Below the pieces are notes generated by a model. That model did no database searches, was not told the origin of the DNA, and saw only the letters and a list, made by a program, of their open reading frames with translations. Below are positions 27,223 to 34,358 of a stretch of DNA of 64,000 bases, one piece after another. A program made the translations under genes and the position numbers. Origin of the DNA: Alphaproteobacteria bacterium (lineage in GTDB: Bacteria > Pseudomonadota > Alphaproteobacteria > Caulobacterales > Hyphomonadaceae); contig JAHJYW010000045.1 of assembly GCA_018827375.1 (NCBI GenBank), positions 186,001 to 250,000 on the forward strand. Reading direction: 5' to 3'. Within the stretch, counting starts at the first letter, position 1. Every line of letters starts with the position of its first letter.

Positions 27223-27981
27223 CTAGAGCGGACGCACCGGCGCGCCGGCAGCGGCGAGGGCCGTGCGCGCGTCGGCGATGGTGGCTTCGCCGAAGTGGAA
27301 GATCGAGGCGGCGAGGACAGCGCTGGCGCCGCCTTCGAGAATGGCGGGGGCAAGGTCATCGACATGGCCTGCGCCGCCCGAGGCGATGACAGGGATGTTC
27401 ACGGCGGAAGAGACAGCGCGCAGCAGGGCGATGTCATAGCCGGACTTGGTGCCGTCCTTGTCCATGCTGGTGAGCAGGATTTCGCCAGCGCCGCGCTTTT
27501 CGGCCTCGATGGCGAAGGTCACGGCATTGATGCCGGTCGGCTCGCGCCCGCCCTTGGTGAAGATTTCCCAATGGTCGCCCGTCTGGCGCGCATCGATGGC
27601 GACGACAACGCACTGGCGCCCGGCCTTGGCGGCGCAGCGGCTGATCAGGCCGGGGTCTGCCACGGCGGCGGAATTGATGGCCACCTTGTCGGCGCCAGCC
27701 TTCAGCAGGGCGACAAGGTCTTCCGCGCTGCGCACGCCGCCGCCGACGGTGAGCGGCATGAAACAGGCCTCTGCCGTGCGGGTGACGATATCCAGTATCG
27801 TGCCGCGGCCTTCATGGCTGGCCGTGATGTCGAGGAAGCACAGCTCGTCGGCGCCCTGCGCGTCATAGGCGCGGGCGAGGGCGACCGGATCGCCGGCGTC
27901 GCGCAGGTCGACGAAGTTGACGCCCTTCACGGTGCGGCCGTCTTTCACGTCGAGACAGGGGATGATGCGGGTCTTGAGCAT
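27223..27981 (-). CDS. hisF: Imidazole glycerol phosphate synthase cyclase subunit
   Basis: A 252-residue TIM barrel that takes ammonia from HisH and converts PRFAR to IGP and AICAR. Catalytic Asp11 ([10 protein letters not shown]) and the second Asp (VVAIDARQ) are in place, with phosphate loops GGGVRS and [11 protein letters not shown]. It heads the hisF-hisE pair; hisA lies 5.6 kb further on, beyond an insertion. Confidence 0.96.
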
Positions 27982-28052
27982 GGGAGGCGTTTAGCGGGGA
28001 AGCGCGCGAGGGGGAAGGGGCGTCAGCCTTGGAAGGACGCGGGCAGGTTGCT

Positions 28053-28769
28053 ATGCCTGATCGCATGACAGAGACCATGACAGACGAGACCGCGCGCTGG
28101 ACGGCGCTGACCGAGGCCGAAGACAAGGCCCTCACCCTGTTTGACGCCATCGAGGCGGCGGGCATTATCGCGCCAGGGCGCAGCGAGCGGCAGGTGGACG
28201 ATGACATTGCCGCGCTGGCGCTGGAGAAGTTCGGCATCGAGCGCCACTGGCACCAGTGCAATGTGCGGGCGGGGGCCAATACGGTGACCACGTTCCATGA
28301 CAAACCGCCCCTGCGCGTGATTGAAGCGGAGGATACGGTCTATGTTGATCTTGGGCCGGTGTTCGAAGCCTGGGAGGCGGATGTGGGGCGCACTTATGCG
28401 GTGGGCGAGCGCGCTGAAAAACATGCGCTGGTCAGCGCGCTGGACACTGTGTTCGAGGCGGTGCGCGCCGAGGCGACGCCGGACATGACGGGCGCGGCGC
28501 TCTATGCACTGGCGTGCGACACGGCCGATGCCCATGGCTATCATTTCGGCGGGGCGATTGCGGGCCATGTGGTGGCGGAATATCCGCATGCCGTGTGGCC
28601 GGGCGACAAGGACCACCAGCGGATCGGCCCGGCCAACCCCACACGCCTGTCAGACCCCGACCCGTTCGGCCGTCCACGCCACTGGATTCTGGAAATCCAC
28701 CTGCTGGAACCGGGGCGGACATGGGGCGGGTTTTATGAGCGGTTGCTGCGTGGGGTTGGACGCGTTTAA
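28053..28769 (+). CDS. M24-family metallopeptidase (Xaa-Pro peptidase-like)
   Basis: A 238-residue pita-bread-fold protein. The metal ligands expected of M24 are visible: two Asp in YVDLGPVFEAWEADVGR, His in GHVVAEYPH, Glu in WILEIHLL and a last Glu in FYERLL. The usual N-terminal creatinase-like domain is lacking. Three ATGs (28053, 28065, 28077) are possible. It is the first plus-strand gene of the block separating hisF from hisA. Confidence 0.82.
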   Translation: MPDRMTETMTDETARWTALTEAEDKALTLFDAIEAAGIIAPGRSERQVDDDIAALALEKFGIERHWHQCNVRAGANTVTTFHDKPPLRVIEAEDTVYVDLGPVFEAWEADVGRTYAVGERAEKHALVSALDTVFEAVRAEATPDMTGAALYALACDTADAHGYHFGGAIAGHVVAEYPHAVWPGDKDHQRIGPANPTRLSDPDPFGRPRHWILEIHLLEPGRTWGGFYERLLRGVGRV

Positions 28770-28831
28770 AGGGAACGTCGACTCGTGGTAGAATCCGAAT
28801 CTCAAATAACTGTTTCGGTTCGGATCGAAAA

Positions 28832-29905
28832 ATGAGCGACAGTCCAATTTCAAATGCCAACAAAGTCACGGCCAAATCTGGTCGTTTGCACTATTCAGAA
28901 CCGATAGTGATTTCGGAGAATACGAGAACGAAGATTGAAGCACTTCCTTACTTCATAGATCACTCCGGCGAGGAAAAGCTGACGCTCAAGATAAACTTTT
29001 TTACAAAGAATCCGACGTCTCGTCAGTGGGAGCACAATAAACAGAAGTCGTTTTCGCTGGCCGATTCTACAGTACCAAAATTAAAGAGAGCGATTGATCA
29101 GTTTGAGGCCCTTCTTGGTCGCCCAGCTGACGCTCAATATTTGCTCGTGCCGTTGGGAGAAGCAAGTTTCCAAATAGGGCGCACCGAGAAGGCGAAGGCA
29201 GTCCAAGCATTATTGAATGCCCTTTCTGATCCGCAAATTTTGGCCCATTTGGATTTGGGAAAACTTACAGATGAAGTCGCGCAAGCTCTGAAAGGCAGAG
29301 TACGGATTGCGGAAATGGAGCGTGCTATTAGGCAACTTGAGTTGATGCTGGGTAGCGAGGAAAACGCGGTAATCCTCTATCAAAAATGGTTCGACGAGCA
29401 CTATTGGGTTTTGGGAAATGCCTATGTGGCAAAAGACGATCTGAGATCTAGTAGCGCGACAGATAGAGTTGACTTACTGATGCATCATACGGCCGCTGGA
29501 ATGAGGGACATAATAGAACTCAAGCGGCCCAACATGCCCGTCCTGCATTTCGACAATGCACATCGAAACTTCTACTTCGCGGCGGACGTGTCATCCGCAA
29601 TTGGGCAATGTCACAGATACTTGGAGGTCTTCTCTGAAGAGGCATCTTCAGGCCTTCGTGATGCGCCTCACATAGTTGCTCACTACCCAGAAGCAGTGAT
29701 CGTGATTGGCCGATCTGAGGGGTGGCCTGCAGATAAGCAGAAAGCACTCCGTGGGCTCAACAGTCGTTTAAATGGCATAAAAGTCATGACGTTTGATCAC
29801 GTCCTTGCTCAAGCAAGGGCGCTACTCGACTGTGTTCGACCAGCTGAAATGGAAGTAGATGAAGCAGCTCAGACAAGGTCCAGTTTGGACGAACTGAATT
29901 TTTGA
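28832..29905 (+). CDS. Shedu-type anti-phage nuclease (DUF4263)
   Basis: A 357-residue protein. The C-terminal half (about 185-335) matches the Shedu SduA/DUF4263 nuclease: QKWFDEHYWVLGNAY, an acidic DRVDLLM (Asp214), the PD-(D/E)xK core IIELKRP (Glu229, Lys231), Gln259 in AIGQCHRYLE, PEAVIVIGRS and LNSRLNGIKVMTFDHVL. All likely catalytic residues are present, so it should be active. Residues 1-180, probably the sensing part, match nothing I recognise. The gene and the sequence after it are clearly richer in A+T than the neighbours, and no Shine-Dalgarno is visible. Shedu acts as a single-gene defence system, so lack of partners is not a defect. Horizontal acquisition is the likely origin. 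Confidence 0.85.
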   Translation: MSDSPISNANKVTAKSGRLHYSEPIVISENTRTKIEALPYFIDHSGEEKLTLKINFFTKNPTSRQWEHNKQKSFSLADSTVPKLKRAIDQFEALLGRPADAQYLLVPLGEASFQIGRTEKAKAVQALLNALSDPQILAHLDLGKLTDEVAQALKGRVRIAEMERAIRQLELMLGSEENAVILYQKWFDEHYWVLGNAYVAKDDLRSSSATDRVDLLMHHTAAGMRDIIELKRPNMPVLHFDNAHRNFYFAADVSSAIGQCHRYLEVFSEEASSGLRDAPHIVAHYPEAVIVIGRSEGWPADKQKALRGLNSRLNGIKVMTFDHVLAQARALLDCVRPAEMEVDEAAQTRSSLDELNF

Positions 29906-30208
29906 TCGCCCTAGCGGGGAGTACAAGACATCCCTTTGCGCTGGGCGTTGTCGATGCAATCGCTTTTATTTGAAGGCGCCTGAGTAGATGCCCCAACAAT
30001 TCGCCCGTTTGAGGCTGTTCGACGCCAACGCCAGCCGCCACTTCTCTCTGTGAACAATTGTTGCGCCTACACACGCTCCCAAGGATTGAGGGCGTGCGGA
30101 GGCTGCTTCATCTAACCGACCTTTCATCCAAGAACCGAGCCTTTTGCGGTATACTGTCTTGACGCGCGGCGGATGACTGCGCGTGAGGAAACCCAGGAGG
30201 ATTATGAC
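29906..30208. other. Intergenic stretch after the Shedu gene
   Basis: About 300 bp without a convincing gene. The first half is A+T-richer, like the Shedu gene, and the composition returns to the chromosomal norm near 30170. Frames here on the minus strand have no ribosome site and unlikely composition. Confidence 0.5.
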
Positions 30209-30403
30209 ATGGACATCAGGACATTGGAAATCAGAACATCGGAGGCGATCCGGAAGGATGGCGCGGAGGAGCTGGGCCGGCGTGCGGCGAAGCTGTCGCG
30301 ACTGGTGCCGGATGCGGGCCGTGCGGATGGTCCGGAGACGGAGATGGCGCATGCGTTGCGCACACGGCGCCGGTTGCGGCGGCCCCTGTCGAGCGCGGTT
30401 TAG
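30209..30403 (+). CDS. Small 64-aa charged protein
   Basis: MDIRTLEIRTSEAIRKDG starts a 64-residue, helix-prone, strongly charged protein ending RRLRRPLSSAV. I do not recognise the family. Expression is well supported by a full AGGAGG at 30195-30200, 8 bases before the ATG. Its last eight codons recur as a detached fragment at 31740-31763, with only synonymous changes. It lies between the Shedu gene and the lipoprotein gene. Confidence 0.65.
   Translation: MDIRTLEIRTSEAIRKDGAEELGRRAAKLSRLVPDAGRADGPETEMAHALRTRRRLRRPLSSAV
30380..30403 (+). repeat. 24-bp direct repeat, copy 1
   Basis: This stretch encodes RPLSSAV plus stop, the 3' end of the small 64-aa gene. 22 of 24 bases match copy 2 at 31740-31763. 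The two copies bracket the lipoprotein gene. Confidence 0.75.
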
Positions 30404-30410
30404 GCGCGCA

Positions 30411-30442
30411 GGCTCGGCCTTCGACTTCGCTTAGGATGAGCC
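30411..30442. repeat. REP-like palindromic element
   Basis: GGCTC (30411-30415) and GAGCC (30438-30442) flank a core CTTCGACTTCGCTTAGGATG, a wording common in dispersed REP-type repeats of proteobacteria. Only one copy is seen in this window. Confidence 0.35.
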
Positions 30443-30584
30443 CGTTCAGTCATACCCGCCCTCTCCCATGCGGTACACCTGCCCAGTGGCTACAGCTTTG
30501 CCTAACCCGATTTACGAGGGCGGGTTGCAAAGTTTCTTAAGGTTTAAAATATATCTCCTTCTGGATGACGAAATTCAGGAGCCG

Positions 30585-31694
30585 ATGATGCTTAGAAACG
30601 TTCTGCTAGGAGCTGCTGCACTTTGCCTGACTGCATGTGCAAATCACCAGCCGACTAAAACGGCGGCGATGGGTCTGCCGGGCTTTATGAGCCAGGCAGA
30701 CACGCTTGAGATGCAGCGCCCTGTCCTCCCGGTCACGCATTATGTAAAGTGGTATGCGGAGGATCGGCTACAGTATTCGATCCAGCTCGATTATATTAGC
30801 GGCATGTCGCAGCGCGACTATCTGTTTGAAGAACCTAATCAGGAAATGTTTCTGCCGATGGTTCGACAGGCCCTCTACCAAACGGGCCTTGGCGCCAAAT
30901 CCGGCGCGGGCGCGCGGTATGCTTTGCAGATCGAGTTCCTTGATCTCGACGCAGATGCGTTTGGCCGGAACTTTGCGGGCAAGACCAATGCGATCTATCG
31001 CCTCGTCGACCGGCGAACGAATGAAACGGTTTATGAAAACACGATCGGATCGCGGTTTGTTGCGAAATATCCGGGGCTCAACGAAGATGACGCAAGTTTC
31101 GCTTATGACGTTTCCGCCGCGGGTGTGATCGCGGCAACGCGAGCGTTTGGCGCCTTCTCATTGTATGAGGGCGGACTTGTCGAGTTGTGGAACAACAATC
31201 AGAAGCTTCAGAACTTCTTCGGGGGCGATTCCATCGACGAAGTTTCTCAGGCGGGCTGGAATGACGCCTACCAGTCATATGCCTGGGTGACGGGAATCTC
31301 GGCCTTGTCGGGACCGGCGCTTGTGTTGCTCGGTCAAGTGAACCCGTTGAACTATGTTTCCCTGCAGCTTGAGCCTCGCTCGGAGTCCGCCGACTTTACA
31401 AAAGCCCGGCGCAGAAGTCTGTCAGAAACCGGGATCGGCTCGCGCTCGGCGCGTGAGCGCGCCAACGAACTTAATTCGCACCTGTTGGCGCAGAGTTTGA
31501 CAGTGTTCCTGCTCGATCTCGCGGAGAAGGAAGATGTTCGCCTCACGCAACTCGTGCCATGCGGTTCGTCGCCATCTGATGCATCTGACATTATTGAGGC
31601 CGTCCGGCAGCGCGCGCGCGTCGTCTCTGACGATTGCAGGCTGTATGCTGCACCTGACACTTCAATGGGTGTTGGTATTACGGCTTACAAATAG
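30585..31694 (+). CDS. Hypothetical lipoprotein
   Basis: A 369-residue exported protein with a lipobox LTACAN (Cys near residue 17), so lipid-anchored. The body is mixed alpha/beta with no recognised domain; notable segments are HYVKWYAEDRLQYSIQLDY and FLDLDADAFGRNFAGKTNA, and a C-terminal region with two Cys. Two ATGs in a row (30585, 30588) follow CAGGAG. The frame can be read from 30468 but that gives no signal peptide. The gene is bracketed by the 24-bp direct repeats. Function unknown. Confidence 0.75.
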   Translation: MMLRNVLLGAAALCLTACANHQPTKTAAMGLPGFMSQADTLEMQRPVLPVTHYVKWYAEDRLQYSIQLDYISGMSQRDYLFEEPNQEMFLPMVRQALYQTGLGAKSGAGARYALQIEFLDLDADAFGRNFAGKTNAIYRLVDRRTNETVYENTIGSRFVAKYPGLNEDDASFAYDVSAAGVIAATRAFGAFSLYEGGLVELWNNNQKLQNFFGGDSIDEVSQAGWNDAYQSYAWVTGISALSGPALVLLGQVNPLNYVSLQLEPRSESADFTKARRRSLSETGIGSRSARERANELNSHLLAQSLTVFLLDLAEKEDVRLTQLVPCGSSPSDASDIIEAVRQRARVVSDDCRLYAAPDTSMGVGITAYK

Positions 31695-31739
31695 CCTGAG
31701 CGGCGCGTAGCTGCTGTGACAGATGGTTCATTCGCGAAC

Positions 31740-31763
31740 CGGCCGCTGTCGAGCGCGGTATAG
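31740..31763 (+). repeat. 24-bp direct repeat, copy 2
   Basis: It matches 30380-30403 except at two positions. Read in the same frame it again encodes RPLSSAV and a stop: the differences are CCC to CCG and GTT to GTA, both silent. Upstream of it the similarity ends at once, so it is a 3' remnant of a related gene. Confidence 0.75.
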
Positions 31764-31863
31764 TCAGCCGACCCTTAGTGGCATCGATAAAATTTTACCG
31801 ACCGCCTGGCCCATGTATTAATTCATATCTGCAATAGTCTACGCTGAAGATCGGGAGTTTTCA

Positions 31864-32604
31864 GTGGGACTGAGGCATCACCAATGGATCGCCGTCCGGA
31901 CGACGGCGTGCGTGACCCTTGCGGCCACGATCATGTCGTTCATGTGCATCTGGGTGTGGATGCAGATCGACCCGGTCATGACGATCCAGCGCGCCTACCT
32001 GGCCGCGACCATCATACCGCTGTTGATTTCGCCCGCTTGCAGCATGGTGATCCAGCGCGCGCATGTTCAGGTGCGCGAACTGTCGGACGAGAACGAGTAT
32101 CTCGCGAACCATGACGAACTGACGGGGCTCAGCAATCGCCGCGCCTTCTTTACGCGGGCCAAGGCGATGCAGGCAAGTGCCGAACCGGCCCGGCCCGTGT
32201 TTGCCTGCGCGATTGCCGACATCGACGATTTCAAGCGGATCAATGATTCCCTCGGCCATCATGTCGGCGATGAAGTGCTGAAAGGCCTTTCGACCGTGCT
32301 GTCGCAAGTGGCCCCGCACGGCGCCATCGTGGCCCGTCTCGGCGGGGAAGAGTTTGCGTTGGCGGGCCGGTTTGCCGATGAGAACGTGGCGCGCTTCTGG
32401 TTTGAGGCGCTTGTGCGGGAAGTGGCGTTCCGTCATCCCGGCGGCCATGACGTGACGGTCAGCCTCGGCTGGTGCGTGGGGCAGGACGGCGAGACGCTGT
32501 CGGCCCTGCTGACCCGGGCGGACAGGGCGCTTTATGCGTCCAAGGCAGCGGGCAAGAACCGCGCTGAAATGGCCGAACGCGACATGCTGCGGGTTGTTGC
32601 CTAG
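31864..32604 (+). CDS. Membrane-bound diguanylate cyclase (GGDEF)
   Basis: A 246-residue protein with two membrane helices (about 10-65), a short coiled segment and a GGDEF domain. NHDELTGLSNRRAFF opens the domain, IADIDDFKRINDSLGHHVGDEVL binds substrate and metal, and the active site is GGEEF (residues 160-164). It should make cyclic di-GMP. No RxxD inhibitory site is seen at the expected place. GTG start with GGGAG before it. It sits in the block between hisF and hisA. Confidence 0.9.
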   Translation: MGLRHHQWIAVRTTACVTLAATIMSFMCIWVWMQIDPVMTIQRAYLAATIIPLLISPACSMVIQRAHVQVRELSDENEYLANHDELTGLSNRRAFFTRAKAMQASAEPARPVFACAIADIDDFKRINDSLGHHVGDEVLKGLSTVLSQVAPHGAIVARLGGEEFALAGRFADENVARFWFEALVREVAFRHPGGHDVTVSLGWCVGQDGETLSALLTRADRALYASKAAGKNRAEMAERDMLRVVA

Positions 32605-32646
32605 GCTGACGCGCGGGCCGCCTGGGCGGCCACGGTTTTTCTCCAA

Positions 32647-33111
32647 TCAGTCCTGATCGGTGGCGAGCGTTGTCAGCGTCTGCTTGAGCTGGACGAGCGT
32701 TTCCAGCGGCAGGCCCATTTCACAGGCAATGCGGGCGGGAATGTCGACGGCCTTTGCGCGCATGGCCCGGCCTTGTTTCGTGAGCGTGATGCGGACGCGG
32801 CGTTCATCGGCAGCGTCACGCGTGCGTATGACGAGGCCGGCGGTTTCGAGGCGTTTGAGCAATGGCGTCAGCGTGCCGGAATCCAGGCTCAGCGCCTCGC
32901 CCACCTCACCCACCAGACGGTCGTCGCGTTCCCAGAGGACAAGCAGTGTCAGGTATTGCGGATAGGTGAGGCCGAGCGGCTCCAACTGGTCGCGATAGAG
33001 CCGGATGACCCGGTTGGCCGCCGCATAGAGCGCAAAGCAAAGCTGGTGATCGAGCGCGAGCGGATCGAACGGCTTGGCGGCGTTTTCAGGGGCATCCGGC
33101 TCTGGGGTCAT
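32647..33111 (-). CDS. ohrR: MarR-family organic peroxide sensor OhrR
   Basis: A 154-residue winged-helix repressor. DHQLCFALY holds the reactive Cys25, LGLTYPQYL the conserved Tyr, and SGTLTPLLKRLE the recognition helix, with DERRVRITLT in the wing. Cys129 could be the resolving partner, as in two-cysteine OhrR proteins. Oxidation by organic hydroperoxide should release it from DNA. Its start overlaps the ohr stop (ATGA), and a palindrome upstream of ohr is the probable operator. Confidence 0.92.
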   Translation of the reverse strand: MTPEPDAPENAAKPFDPLALDHQLCFALYAAANRVIRLYRDQLEPLGLTYPQYLTLLVLWERDDRLVGEVGEALSLDSGTLTPLLKRLETAGLVIRTRDAADERRVRITLTKQGRAMRAKAVDIPARIACEMGLPLETLVQLKQTLTTLATDQD

Positions 33112-33521
33112 TTCACTTTCACGACGGGTTTGATGTCGATATTGCCTTTGACGGCGTTCGAATATGGGCACACGGCATGGGCCTGTGCAACCAGGTCATT
33201 GGCTGCGGCTTGGTCGAGGCCGGTGATCTCGACGAGGATGGCGACGTCGAGCGCGAAGCCGGTGTCATTCGGATTGAGCGAGACGGTGACATTCACTGCG
33301 CTGCTTTCCACGGCGATCTTCTGCTGGCGGGCGACATGGTTGATTGCGCTGTCGAAACAGGCGGCATAGCCGGCCGCGAAGAGTTGTTCAGGGTTGTTGC
33401 CCTTGCCGTTGCCACCGAGCTCTTTCGGGAGCGCGAGGTCGACCTTGAAGGCGCCGTCTGTGGTTTGGCTGTGGCCGTTGCGGCCACCTTCGGCGCGGGC
33501 GGATGTGGAATAAAGGGCCAT
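33108..33521 (-). CDS. ohr: Organic hydroperoxide resistance protein Ohr
   Basis: A 137-residue OsmC-family peroxidase that reduces organic hydroperoxides. Both catalytic cysteines are there: Cys55 (YAACFDSAI) and Cys118 (AVCPYSNA), with the substrate Arg in GGRNGHS. A good AGGAG precedes the ATG. It forms an operon with ohrR. Confidence 0.95.
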   Translation of the reverse strand: MALYSTSARAEGGRNGHSQTTDGAFKVDLALPKELGGNGKGNNPEQLFAAGYAACFDSAINHVARQQKIAVESSAVNVTVSLNPNDTGFALDVAILVEITGLDQAAANDLVAQAHAVCPYSNAVKGNIDIKPVVKVK

Positions 33522-33547
33522 GATGTATCTCCTGTGTTGGCAAGAGA

Positions 33548-33576
33548 TATATAGGGAGCGATTAAATTGTGCACAA
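33548..33576 (-). promoter_or_regulatory. Candidate ohr promoter
   Basis: Read on the minus strand: TTGTGC (33576-33571), 17 bases, then TATATA (33553-33548), 27 bases before the ohr ATG. Fit to the sigma-70 consensus is moderate. The -35 element lies inside the palindrome at 33563-33580. Confidence 0.45.
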
Positions 33577-33580
33577 TGTA
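33563..33580. promoter_or_regulatory. Candidate OhrR operator
   Basis: ATTGTGCACAAT is a perfect 12-bp palindrome; with two more matching pairs outside one mismatch it extends to 18 bp. The half-site AATTGT resembles the known OhrR box TACAATT-N-AATTGTA. It overlaps the putative -35 of ohr, so binding would block transcription. Confidence 0.6.
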
Positions 33581-33629
33581 AAAGATTGCGAAAGGGCGTC
33601 ACGCTTTTGTGAGGCGCCTTGGTAGCGGG

Positions 33630-34358
33630 CTATTGCGCGGCTTTGAGCGCCTCTGCGGGGATAATGTCACCATCGTAAAGGGCGCGGCCGAGGATGGTGC
33701 CGGAGACCGGGGTGCCGGGCGCAGCGCGGAGCTGCGTAATGTCGGCCACGCTGGCGACGCCGCCGCTGGCGATGATCGGGATGGTGACGGCGTTGGCGAG
33801 GGCGGAGGTGAAGTCGACATTGACGCCGGTCTTCAGGCCGTCGCGGCCAATGTCTGTGGCAATGATGGCGGTGACGCCGCAGCCCTCGAAGGCTTTTGCG
33901 AGCTCGATGGCGGACATGTCGCTGGTTTCGGCCCAGCCCTCGACGGCAACCATGCCGTTCTTGGCGTCGATGCCGACAATGATGCGGCCGGGCAGGTCAT
34001 GGGCGGCCGCCTTGACGAGGTCCGGGTCGCGCAGGGCGGCGGTGCCGAGGATGACGCGGGAGACGCCGGCCTCGATCCAGGCGTCGATCTGGGCGCGGGT
34101 GCGGATGCCGCCGCCAAGCTGGACCGGCGCATTGGTGGCCTTGAGGATGGCTTTCACCGCGTCGCCATTGGCCGATGTGCCGGCAAAGGCGCCGTTGAGG
34201 TCAACCACGTGGAGATGGGTGAAGCCAGCTGAATCGAAGGCCGCAGCCTGGTCGGCGGGGCTGTCATTGAAGACGGTGGCGGCATCCATCTCGCCGCGCA
34301 GGAGGCGCACGCACTGGCCGTCTTTAAGATCGATGGCGGGGTAGAGGGTGAAGGTCAT
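33630..34358 (-). CDS. hisA: Phosphoribosylformimino-AICAR isomerase
   Basis: A 242-residue TIM barrel, fourth step of histidine synthesis. Catalytic Asp in [14 protein letters not shown], second Asp in ATDIGRDG, and phosphate loops GGGIRT and ASGGVAS. Its ATG follows the hisH stop directly (TGAATG). Confidence 0.95.

Follow-up and report, generated by a model that had tools for sequence, protein, structure and literature searches.

How does a Shedu nuclease find phage DNA yet spare the chromosome? PMC12137116 reclassifies Shedu as a family in which a single nuclease core is combined with varied N-terminal regulators. The review PMC12904381 describes E. coli SduA as a homotetramer whose N-terminal clamp binds DNA ends and which nicks at a fixed distance. 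The same review suggests additional specificity requirements, reports that heterologous expression is toxic and describes phage T6 escaping E. coli SduA through mutations in the helicase UvsW. The subject here is one gene in the window, the 64,000-nucleotide stretch of Hyphomonadaceae DNA analysed. The gene and the parts of its product are as follows.

28832..29905, plus strand: Shedu (SduA) gene of PADLOC subtype PDLC00402, an open frame with an ATG start, 357 aa
28880..29116, plus strand: N-terminal beta-sheet and helix, residues 17-95, PC4/PUR/Whirly-like (suggestive), from a model
29378..29803, plus strand: PD-(D/E)xK nuclease domain (SduA_C), residues 183-324, from PF14082
29471..29608, plus strand: active site, Asp214 (29471-29473), Glu229 (29516-29518), Lys231 (29522-29524) and Gln259 (29606-29608), from invariant columns with codon positions checked
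29843..29902, plus strand: acidic low-confidence C-terminal tail, residues 338-357, ending SSLDELNF, a divergent SSB-like tip, from the model and composition

The window protein is almost certainly a Shedu (SduA) nuclease. Residues 183-324 match PF14082 (SduA_C) at 48.3 bits (cut-off 27), and residues 6-348 match the PADLOC SduA model PDLC00402, labelled 'DUF4263 domain', in one stretch (E 2.6e-117, 389.9 bits). These matches therefore place the protein, together with its N-terminal half, in a Shedu subtype that PADLOC already covers. The original prediction had called the protein a Shedu-type nuclease and proposed a DUF4263 profile search; the search found these two matches, and the core fold of solved Shedu structures bears the assignment out as well. 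Its further suggestion of a new defence variant was not supported in the sense intended: the whole protein falls in a subtype that PADLOC already models. In its description, PDLC00402 assigns no function to either the N-terminal half or the tail. NCBIfam returned one chance-level match to the window protein and nothing else, and a search of its own genome found the window protein itself as the sole match. By homology, its role would be defence, and the gene probably works alone, as a single-gene type I system. The M24 peptidase gene and the gene on the right flank are also adjacent without Shedu elsewhere, and the N-terminal region of about 180 aa lies in the same Shedu protein.

The nuclease half carries a complete catalytic set on a Shedu core fold. 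Asp214, Glu229, Lys231 and Gln259, originally proposed as the PD-(D/E)xK residues, are all invariant in three alignments: A1 (n=6), which holds six divergent Shedu proteins with 17-41% identity to the window protein; A3 (n=9); and A7 (n=11), which holds 11 members of the PDLC00402 subtype, the aligned members being 34-41% identical to the window protein. A full-length AlphaFold2 model built from nine sequences has a mean pLDDT of 56, with ten-residue blocks at 231-260 and 291-330 reaching 78-89. Its residues 146-336 superpose on B. cereus SduA 8ti8_D (Z 14.1, rmsd 2.8, 164 aligned), the core scores Z about 14 against 8ti8/8ti9, and it also superposes on E. coli SduA 8ps4_A (Z 12.4, rmsd 4.8, 172 aligned). 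The residue aligned to Glu229 is Ala in the PDB nuclease-domain construct u151983 (8ti9/8tia) and Glu in 8ti8, a substitution consistent with a catalytic role for Glu229.

The window protein shares its nuclease core with characterized Shedu proteins. B. cereus SduA (8ti8, 8ti9) shares the nuclease core and the same catalytic Glu, but the subtype profile A2 misses it and the superposition is limited to model residues 146-336. E. coli SduA (8ps4, 8ps5), a DNA-end-sensing tetramer, likewise shares the nuclease core, whereas its N-terminal region is unmatched. Both deposited chains run at most 7 residues beyond the matched region, without a long tail, unlike the tailed members of the subtype. The type I-D protein of Vibrio cholerae, VcSduA, has in common with the window protein a nuclease domain joined to a variable N-terminal regulator, according to PMC12137116. 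There the regulator is a GHKL ATPase, whereas a small beta-sheet domain is modelled here; the same paper reports that a VcSduA nuclease mutant loses protection.

The N-terminal half belongs to the subtype and may resemble a single-strand-binding fold. Residues 1-180 had been thought to match nothing, but on their own they match PDLC00402 at E 1.4e-35. The half is 'unfamiliar' only insofar as Pfam has no family for it, with none above cut-off for residues 1-180. That it is unrelated to anything is ruled out by the PDLC00402 match to the whole protein and to residues 1-180. Structure prediction, also proposed originally, yielded for residues 1-175 (ten sequences) a small beta-sheet domain with a mean pLDDT of 56.2, where blocks across 21-80 reach 68-89, block 81-90 reaches 61 and values outside are lower. 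In a structural comparison, the best 24 of 50 matches were MRP1/2, PURA, PC4, Borrelia PUR, Whirly, T5 PC4 and MoSub1, at Z 5.1-6.5 for a model of mean pLDDT 56, a range (Z < 8) that may reflect merely a common arrangement. We take MRP, PUR, PC4, Sub1 and Whirly to be one single-strand-binding fold group. Foldseek gave no match at E 0.001, its top two rows being Whirly proteins at E 0.12, and in a viral structure library a phage ssDNA-binding protein ranked second (E 0.0098) and a phage transcriptional regulator third (E 0.016). At the sequence level, no PC4/PUR/Whirly-type family stood among the Pfam families listed for 10 members at E 1, and no sequence of that type among the four PDB sequences found by profile search at E 10. 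The modelled likeness to the PC4/PUR/Whirly fold is thus a lead, suggestive only.

Two other proposed relationships of this half were set aside. The mixed profile A1 aligns B. cereus 8ti8 end to end (E 8.2e-36), yet A1 includes distant members, and the subtype-only profile A2, searched against the PDB, missed 8ti8 even at E 10 and reached 8ps4 at its C-terminal part only (E 0.0011); we therefore make no claim that the N-terminal half is homologous to that of B. cereus SduA. A domain in common with a 483-aa frame in genome G1024 (L009, E 1.8e-4) was judged spurious, the frame reading by eye as an M48-like peptidase with repeats.

The gene lies in a small insert between two genes that are neighbours elsewhere in the genus. 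The locus comprises the following features.

28029..28769, plus strand: left flank, M24 metallopeptidase family gene (PF00557, E 1.4e-21)
28757..30530, no strand assigned: inserted segment with the Shedu gene, edges approximate, from Blast of 28650-30700 against same-genus sites L064, L065 and L066
30585..31694, plus strand: right flank, putative lipoprotein, family unassigned, with its start inferred from relatives and a lipoprotein-like N terminus by eye

Homology to the same-genus sites ends near 28757 and restarts near 30530. In one of these genomes, G1386, the M24 gene and the downstream gene are immediate neighbours, 128 bp apart from stop to inferred start; the gap in the window is 1815 bp. 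The Shedu gene has a GC content of 0.480 (GC3 0.483); the M24 gene that precedes it has 0.655 (0.757), and the window as a whole 0.609. The original prediction had pointed to A+T-richness relative to the neighbours, to a missing Shine-Dalgarno sequence and to transfer. The composition agrees; the 20 bases 5' of the ATG, GTTTCGGTTCGGATCGAAAA, hold no strong Shine-Dalgarno by eye; and gain by transfer is backed by the low GC and by the unoccupied site in one genome of the genus. The M24 gene is matched in 9/26 genus genomes, the window's own included. The right-flank gene has no Pfam match, and by tblastn its 408-aa frame matches L064, L065 and L066 from residue 41 onward at 67-87% identity. Genomes G826 and G975 have about 300 bp in common at the M24/lipoprotein junction, 92% identical. 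With the site empty in G1386 and different cargo in G975, the junction is therefore a variable cargo site, and it looks like a small cargo hotspot. Repeats in 28600-30700 are short pairs only, and promoter- and terminator-like sites at the locus are near the shuffled level.

Further observations concern the surroundings of this junction. The insert in G975 (L065:2242-3549) is A+T-rich, contains 122-aa and 267-aa frames and repeats 88 bp of the M24 3' end; this alternative cargo has no Pfam or PADLOC match. At 27223-34358 of the window, hisF and hisA stand 5.6 kb apart, with the M24 peptidase, Shedu, putative lipoprotein, GGDEF, MarR and OsmC genes between them. The hisF-hisA distance is about 2.5-3.2 kb in G1386, G183 and G579.

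Relatives are few within the window's own lineage and scattered across phyla. PDLC00402 was found in 3/385 genomes of the class, the window's own included and the other two distant (E 7e-14 and 6e-12). Relatives occur in 4/398 genomes of the phylum, own included and two distant, and in 4/398 of the order, own included and one judged spurious. None of the class, phylum or order hits came from a second genome of the window's genus, and an initial scan of genomes that used just the window protein as query gave no hits. A scan of genome contigs gave 12 loci, from Hyphomonadaceae, Stenotrophomonas, Silanimonas, Acidobacteria, Paraeggerthella, Streptomyces, Kitasatospora, Firmicutes and Binatia, and including an alphaproteobacterial MAG of another Shedu subtype. 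PDLC00402 homologues thus span Pseudomonadota, Acidobacteriota, Actinomycetota and other phyla. A Streptomyces plasmid match of 54.7% identity is a broken gene and was not used. Phage records gave no match to the window protein or L013, and viral contigs none to the window protein, A2, A3, A5 or L076; the plasmid-type Shedu query A6 found 10 viral loci. Near the Paraeggerthella Shedu gene is an AbiD/Abi_2 abortive-infection gene (L016:2710-3567, PADLOC E 9.2e-42). In the Hyphomonadaceae MAG of L012, of the same order as the window, a gene that by eye is uvrB-like immediately precedes the Shedu gene (L008:13-1446).

Most members of the subtype end in an acidic tail tipped like the C terminus of SSB. 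A Pro-Phe or Pro-Trp (P[FW]) ending closes 8/11 PDLC00402 members with an intact C terminus: DFEEEIPF (L005), DSDDEMPF (L012), EPDDDIPW (L013), PPDDDIPW (L014), ELDDDIPW (L015), TKEDDIPF (L016), YSSDEEPF (L017) and ETDDEIPF (L073). The three others are the window protein and two tailless Streptomycetaceae proteins (L019, L022). All 11 match PDLC00402; the count includes L019, in which the match leaves out the first 74 residues after a chosen start. Left out were a fragment (L018, VDDAPR), two frameshifted genes (L020, RLSA; L021, HAPF), the broken L010 and the duplicates L008, L051, L072 and L077. Six tip-bearing rows of A3 are on average 61% identical over their last 6 residues and 9% over the preceding 10, so that the tip is conserved as the linker diverges; each has acidic residues at 3 of the 4 positions that precede the last two. 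Among 213 non-Shedu neighbouring ORFs, mechanical ORFs of at least 150 aa from 18 sources rather than curated genes, two end in P[FW] and neither is acidic. The Fisher value against this control is 5e-11, which overstates the case because related proteins are treated as independent. A 14-row tree requires 3 changes to account for tip presence, which shows no clustering (182/500 shuffles are as low), and it puts the window protein on a long branch.

The window's own tip has diverged. The tail falls below pLDDT 50 at residues 339-357 and has 6 acidic residues and 1 basic. Its ending, SSLDELNF, has an aromatic C-terminal residue after an acidic stretch, with Asn in place of the Pro before it; it keeps an acidic pair, the terminal Phe and, two positions earlier, a hydrophobic leucine. 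The PDLC00402 match reaches the model's last position, tip included, in L008, L013, L014 and L015, and in the window protein it stops at model position 347, short of the tip. The tip sequence thus sits in a public profile, and we found no text interpreting it.

The resemblance to SSB extends to the arrangement of the tail. A variable linker, an acidic run, Pro and a C-terminal aromatic residue, the makeup of the SSB C-terminal peptide DDDIPF, are also present in the 8/11 members. The differences are that the SSB peptide is on an OB-fold protein and the subtype tip on a nuclease, that three members end in Trp and that the window protein has Asn for Pro. For SSB-Ct (DDDIPF), PMC5872125 lists more than 14 partners and describes a basic pocket that holds the terminal Phe carboxylate. 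An SSB-like tail has also been proposed for a non-SSB repair annealing protein, in which the motif was reported not to be needed for radioresistance. Among the titles and abstract openings listed in searches of open-licence literature, none reports an SSB-like tip in Shedu, which is not proof of absence. The SSB-like tip of the subtype and the candidate single-strand-DNA-binding N-terminal fold, both absent from the original prediction, may be new.

Tips of the subtype follow the spelling of the SSB of their own host. SSB genes were found in 13/13 handles searched (two being one genome) and in the window's own genome. The host tips are DLDDEIPF in the window's genome, DFEDEIPF in G676, DLDDEIPF in G878, FADDDIPF in both Stenotrophomonas, FPDDDIPF in Silanimonas, VYDEDIPF in Paraeggerthella and YSYDEEPF in Acidobacteria. 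Summed over 8 pairs, the BLOSUM62 score of each Shedu tip against its own-host SSB tip is 235, a sum reached by 40/40,320 re-pairings (mean 174), for pairs that are few and not independent of taxonomy. Tipless or broken proteins (L018, L019, L020, L021, L022) and L073, whose host SSB was not fetched, were left out. The most telling pairs come from Acidobacteria (YSSDEEPF, SSB YSYDEEPF) and G676 (DFEEEIPF, SSB DFEDEIPF); the window pair, SSLDELNF against DLDDEIPF, scores lowest of the eight, at 11.

On balance, we favour a reading in which the window protein is a type I Shedu nuclease carried as small mobile cargo, its N-terminal half is a regulator, and its subtype uses SSB mimicry to reach SSB-binding proteins. 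By homology to E. coli SduA, the nuclease domain would cut DNA near ends or branched intermediates. If the modelled likeness holds, the PC4/PUR/Whirly-like N-terminal domain might bind DNA ends or single strands and restrain the nuclease. The flexible acidic tail, with its copy of the host SSB tip, would dock the nuclease on SSB-binding proteins (ExoI, RecO, PriA, primase, chi) and thereby put it at replicating or recombining phage DNA, as sequence conservation and host matching in the relatives suggest. RecG and RecQ are SSB-tip partners as well. We consider it likely that SSB-tip mimicry is a real function in the subtype, and somewhat doubtful that it is still active in the window copy. There the tip has diverged from that of the host SSB, so docking may be weakened or lost, and with Asn for Pro its binding is uncertain. 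A host-matched SSB tip, if true, would be a concrete determinant of how Shedu finds phage DNA and could account for species-specific Shedu behaviour. It would also tie Shedu to the SSB-interacting repair and restart machinery, to which the escape of T6 through UvsW may already point.

Three other readings account for parts of the same evidence. The tail is acidic and directly follows the nuclease domain, and it might be an internal plug that covers the surface with which the same protein binds DNA and keeps it off until DNA ends push the tail aside, with the SSB likeness a convergence on an acidic-plus-aromatic peptide. The SSB tip itself folds back on SSB, which counts for such a plug. PMC12904381 tabulates DNA-end binding as relieving nuclease autoinhibition in Shedu. 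We judge the plug rather improbable, however, since the tips reproduce SSB spellings peculiar to a lineage, such as DEEPF for Acidobacteria and DFE(E/D)EIPF for G676, and since similar tips are found on other Shedu subtypes, including plasmid ones with a long, different N-terminal region. For the window copy alone, the tail may be functionless, its tip decaying in the window lineage while the N-terminal domain and nuclease suffice, a reading compatible with mimicry in relatives. SSLDELNF lacks Pro and has fewer acidic residues than DLDDEIPF, and the two Streptomycetaceae members are tailless; yet the tip retains the acidic pair, the terminal Phe and the hydrophobic residue at the second position before that Phe, in a gene that is open throughout and complete in its catalytic residues, and we regard decay as unlikely.

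It is very improbable that the protein serves no defence and is instead a housekeeping DNA repair nuclease with a Shedu core, recruited to repair by its SSB tip. SSB-tip partners are indeed replication and repair enzymes (PMC5872125), and the L008 Shedu gene follows the gene judged uvrB-like by eye. A housekeeping role is opposed by the sparse, patchy occurrence of relatives (4/398 genomes of the order, own and one judged spurious included; 3/385 of the class, own included), by the low GC of an insert whose site is unoccupied in one genome of the genus, and by the Abi_2 gene nearby in L016.

Tips of this kind are also found beyond the subtype, at lower frequency. Of 43 other, non-PDLC00402 Shedu proteins examined, 8 end in P[FW] and 35 do not: GGELIPF (L074), DDWDSPF (L075), DYFEDIPF (L076), SSDSVPF (L085), TLDTVPF (L096), TEDTVPF (L105), TLDDVPF (L106) and RDNEDPF (L113) are the eight. 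The Fisher value against the 2/213 control ORFs is 1e-5, again overstated because relatives are treated as independent, and the 43 are not a random sample, 20 of them being plasmid genes (H2 and 19 chosen for spread among plasmid hits). They include L023 (ending NNQVK) and near-misses scored as tipless, namely L007 (ADSIF), L092 (SGAF), L114 and L115 (EPDLF) and L011 (EEPPL). Left out were fragments L052 and L053, the weak or unclear L086 and L087, L108 (identical to L096), the duplicates L081, L083 and L088, and L009, judged spurious.

A broader conjecture, which we hold tentatively and would not yet bet on, is that many Shedu proteins, a sizeable share of the family, imitate SSB: they would be oligomeric nucleases that combine an ssDNA-binding regulatory domain with several host-tuned SSB-type tips on flexible arms. 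Replication and recombination proteins, whether the host's or recruited by a phage, would dock on them as on SSB and so deliver them to phage replication intermediates, telling phage from resting host DNA, and the tip would be on several subtypes with different N-terminal sensors.

Two further observations concern the tips outside the subtype. The plasmid-borne Shedu proteins L096, L105 and L106 end in TVPF or DVPF, and six others in alignment A6 are without such an ending. In genome G1129 two Shedu genes are adjacent (L018:5531-7676), a PDLC00402-type fragment and a complete Shedu of another subtype (L085), a 451-aa frame that ends in SSDSVPF.
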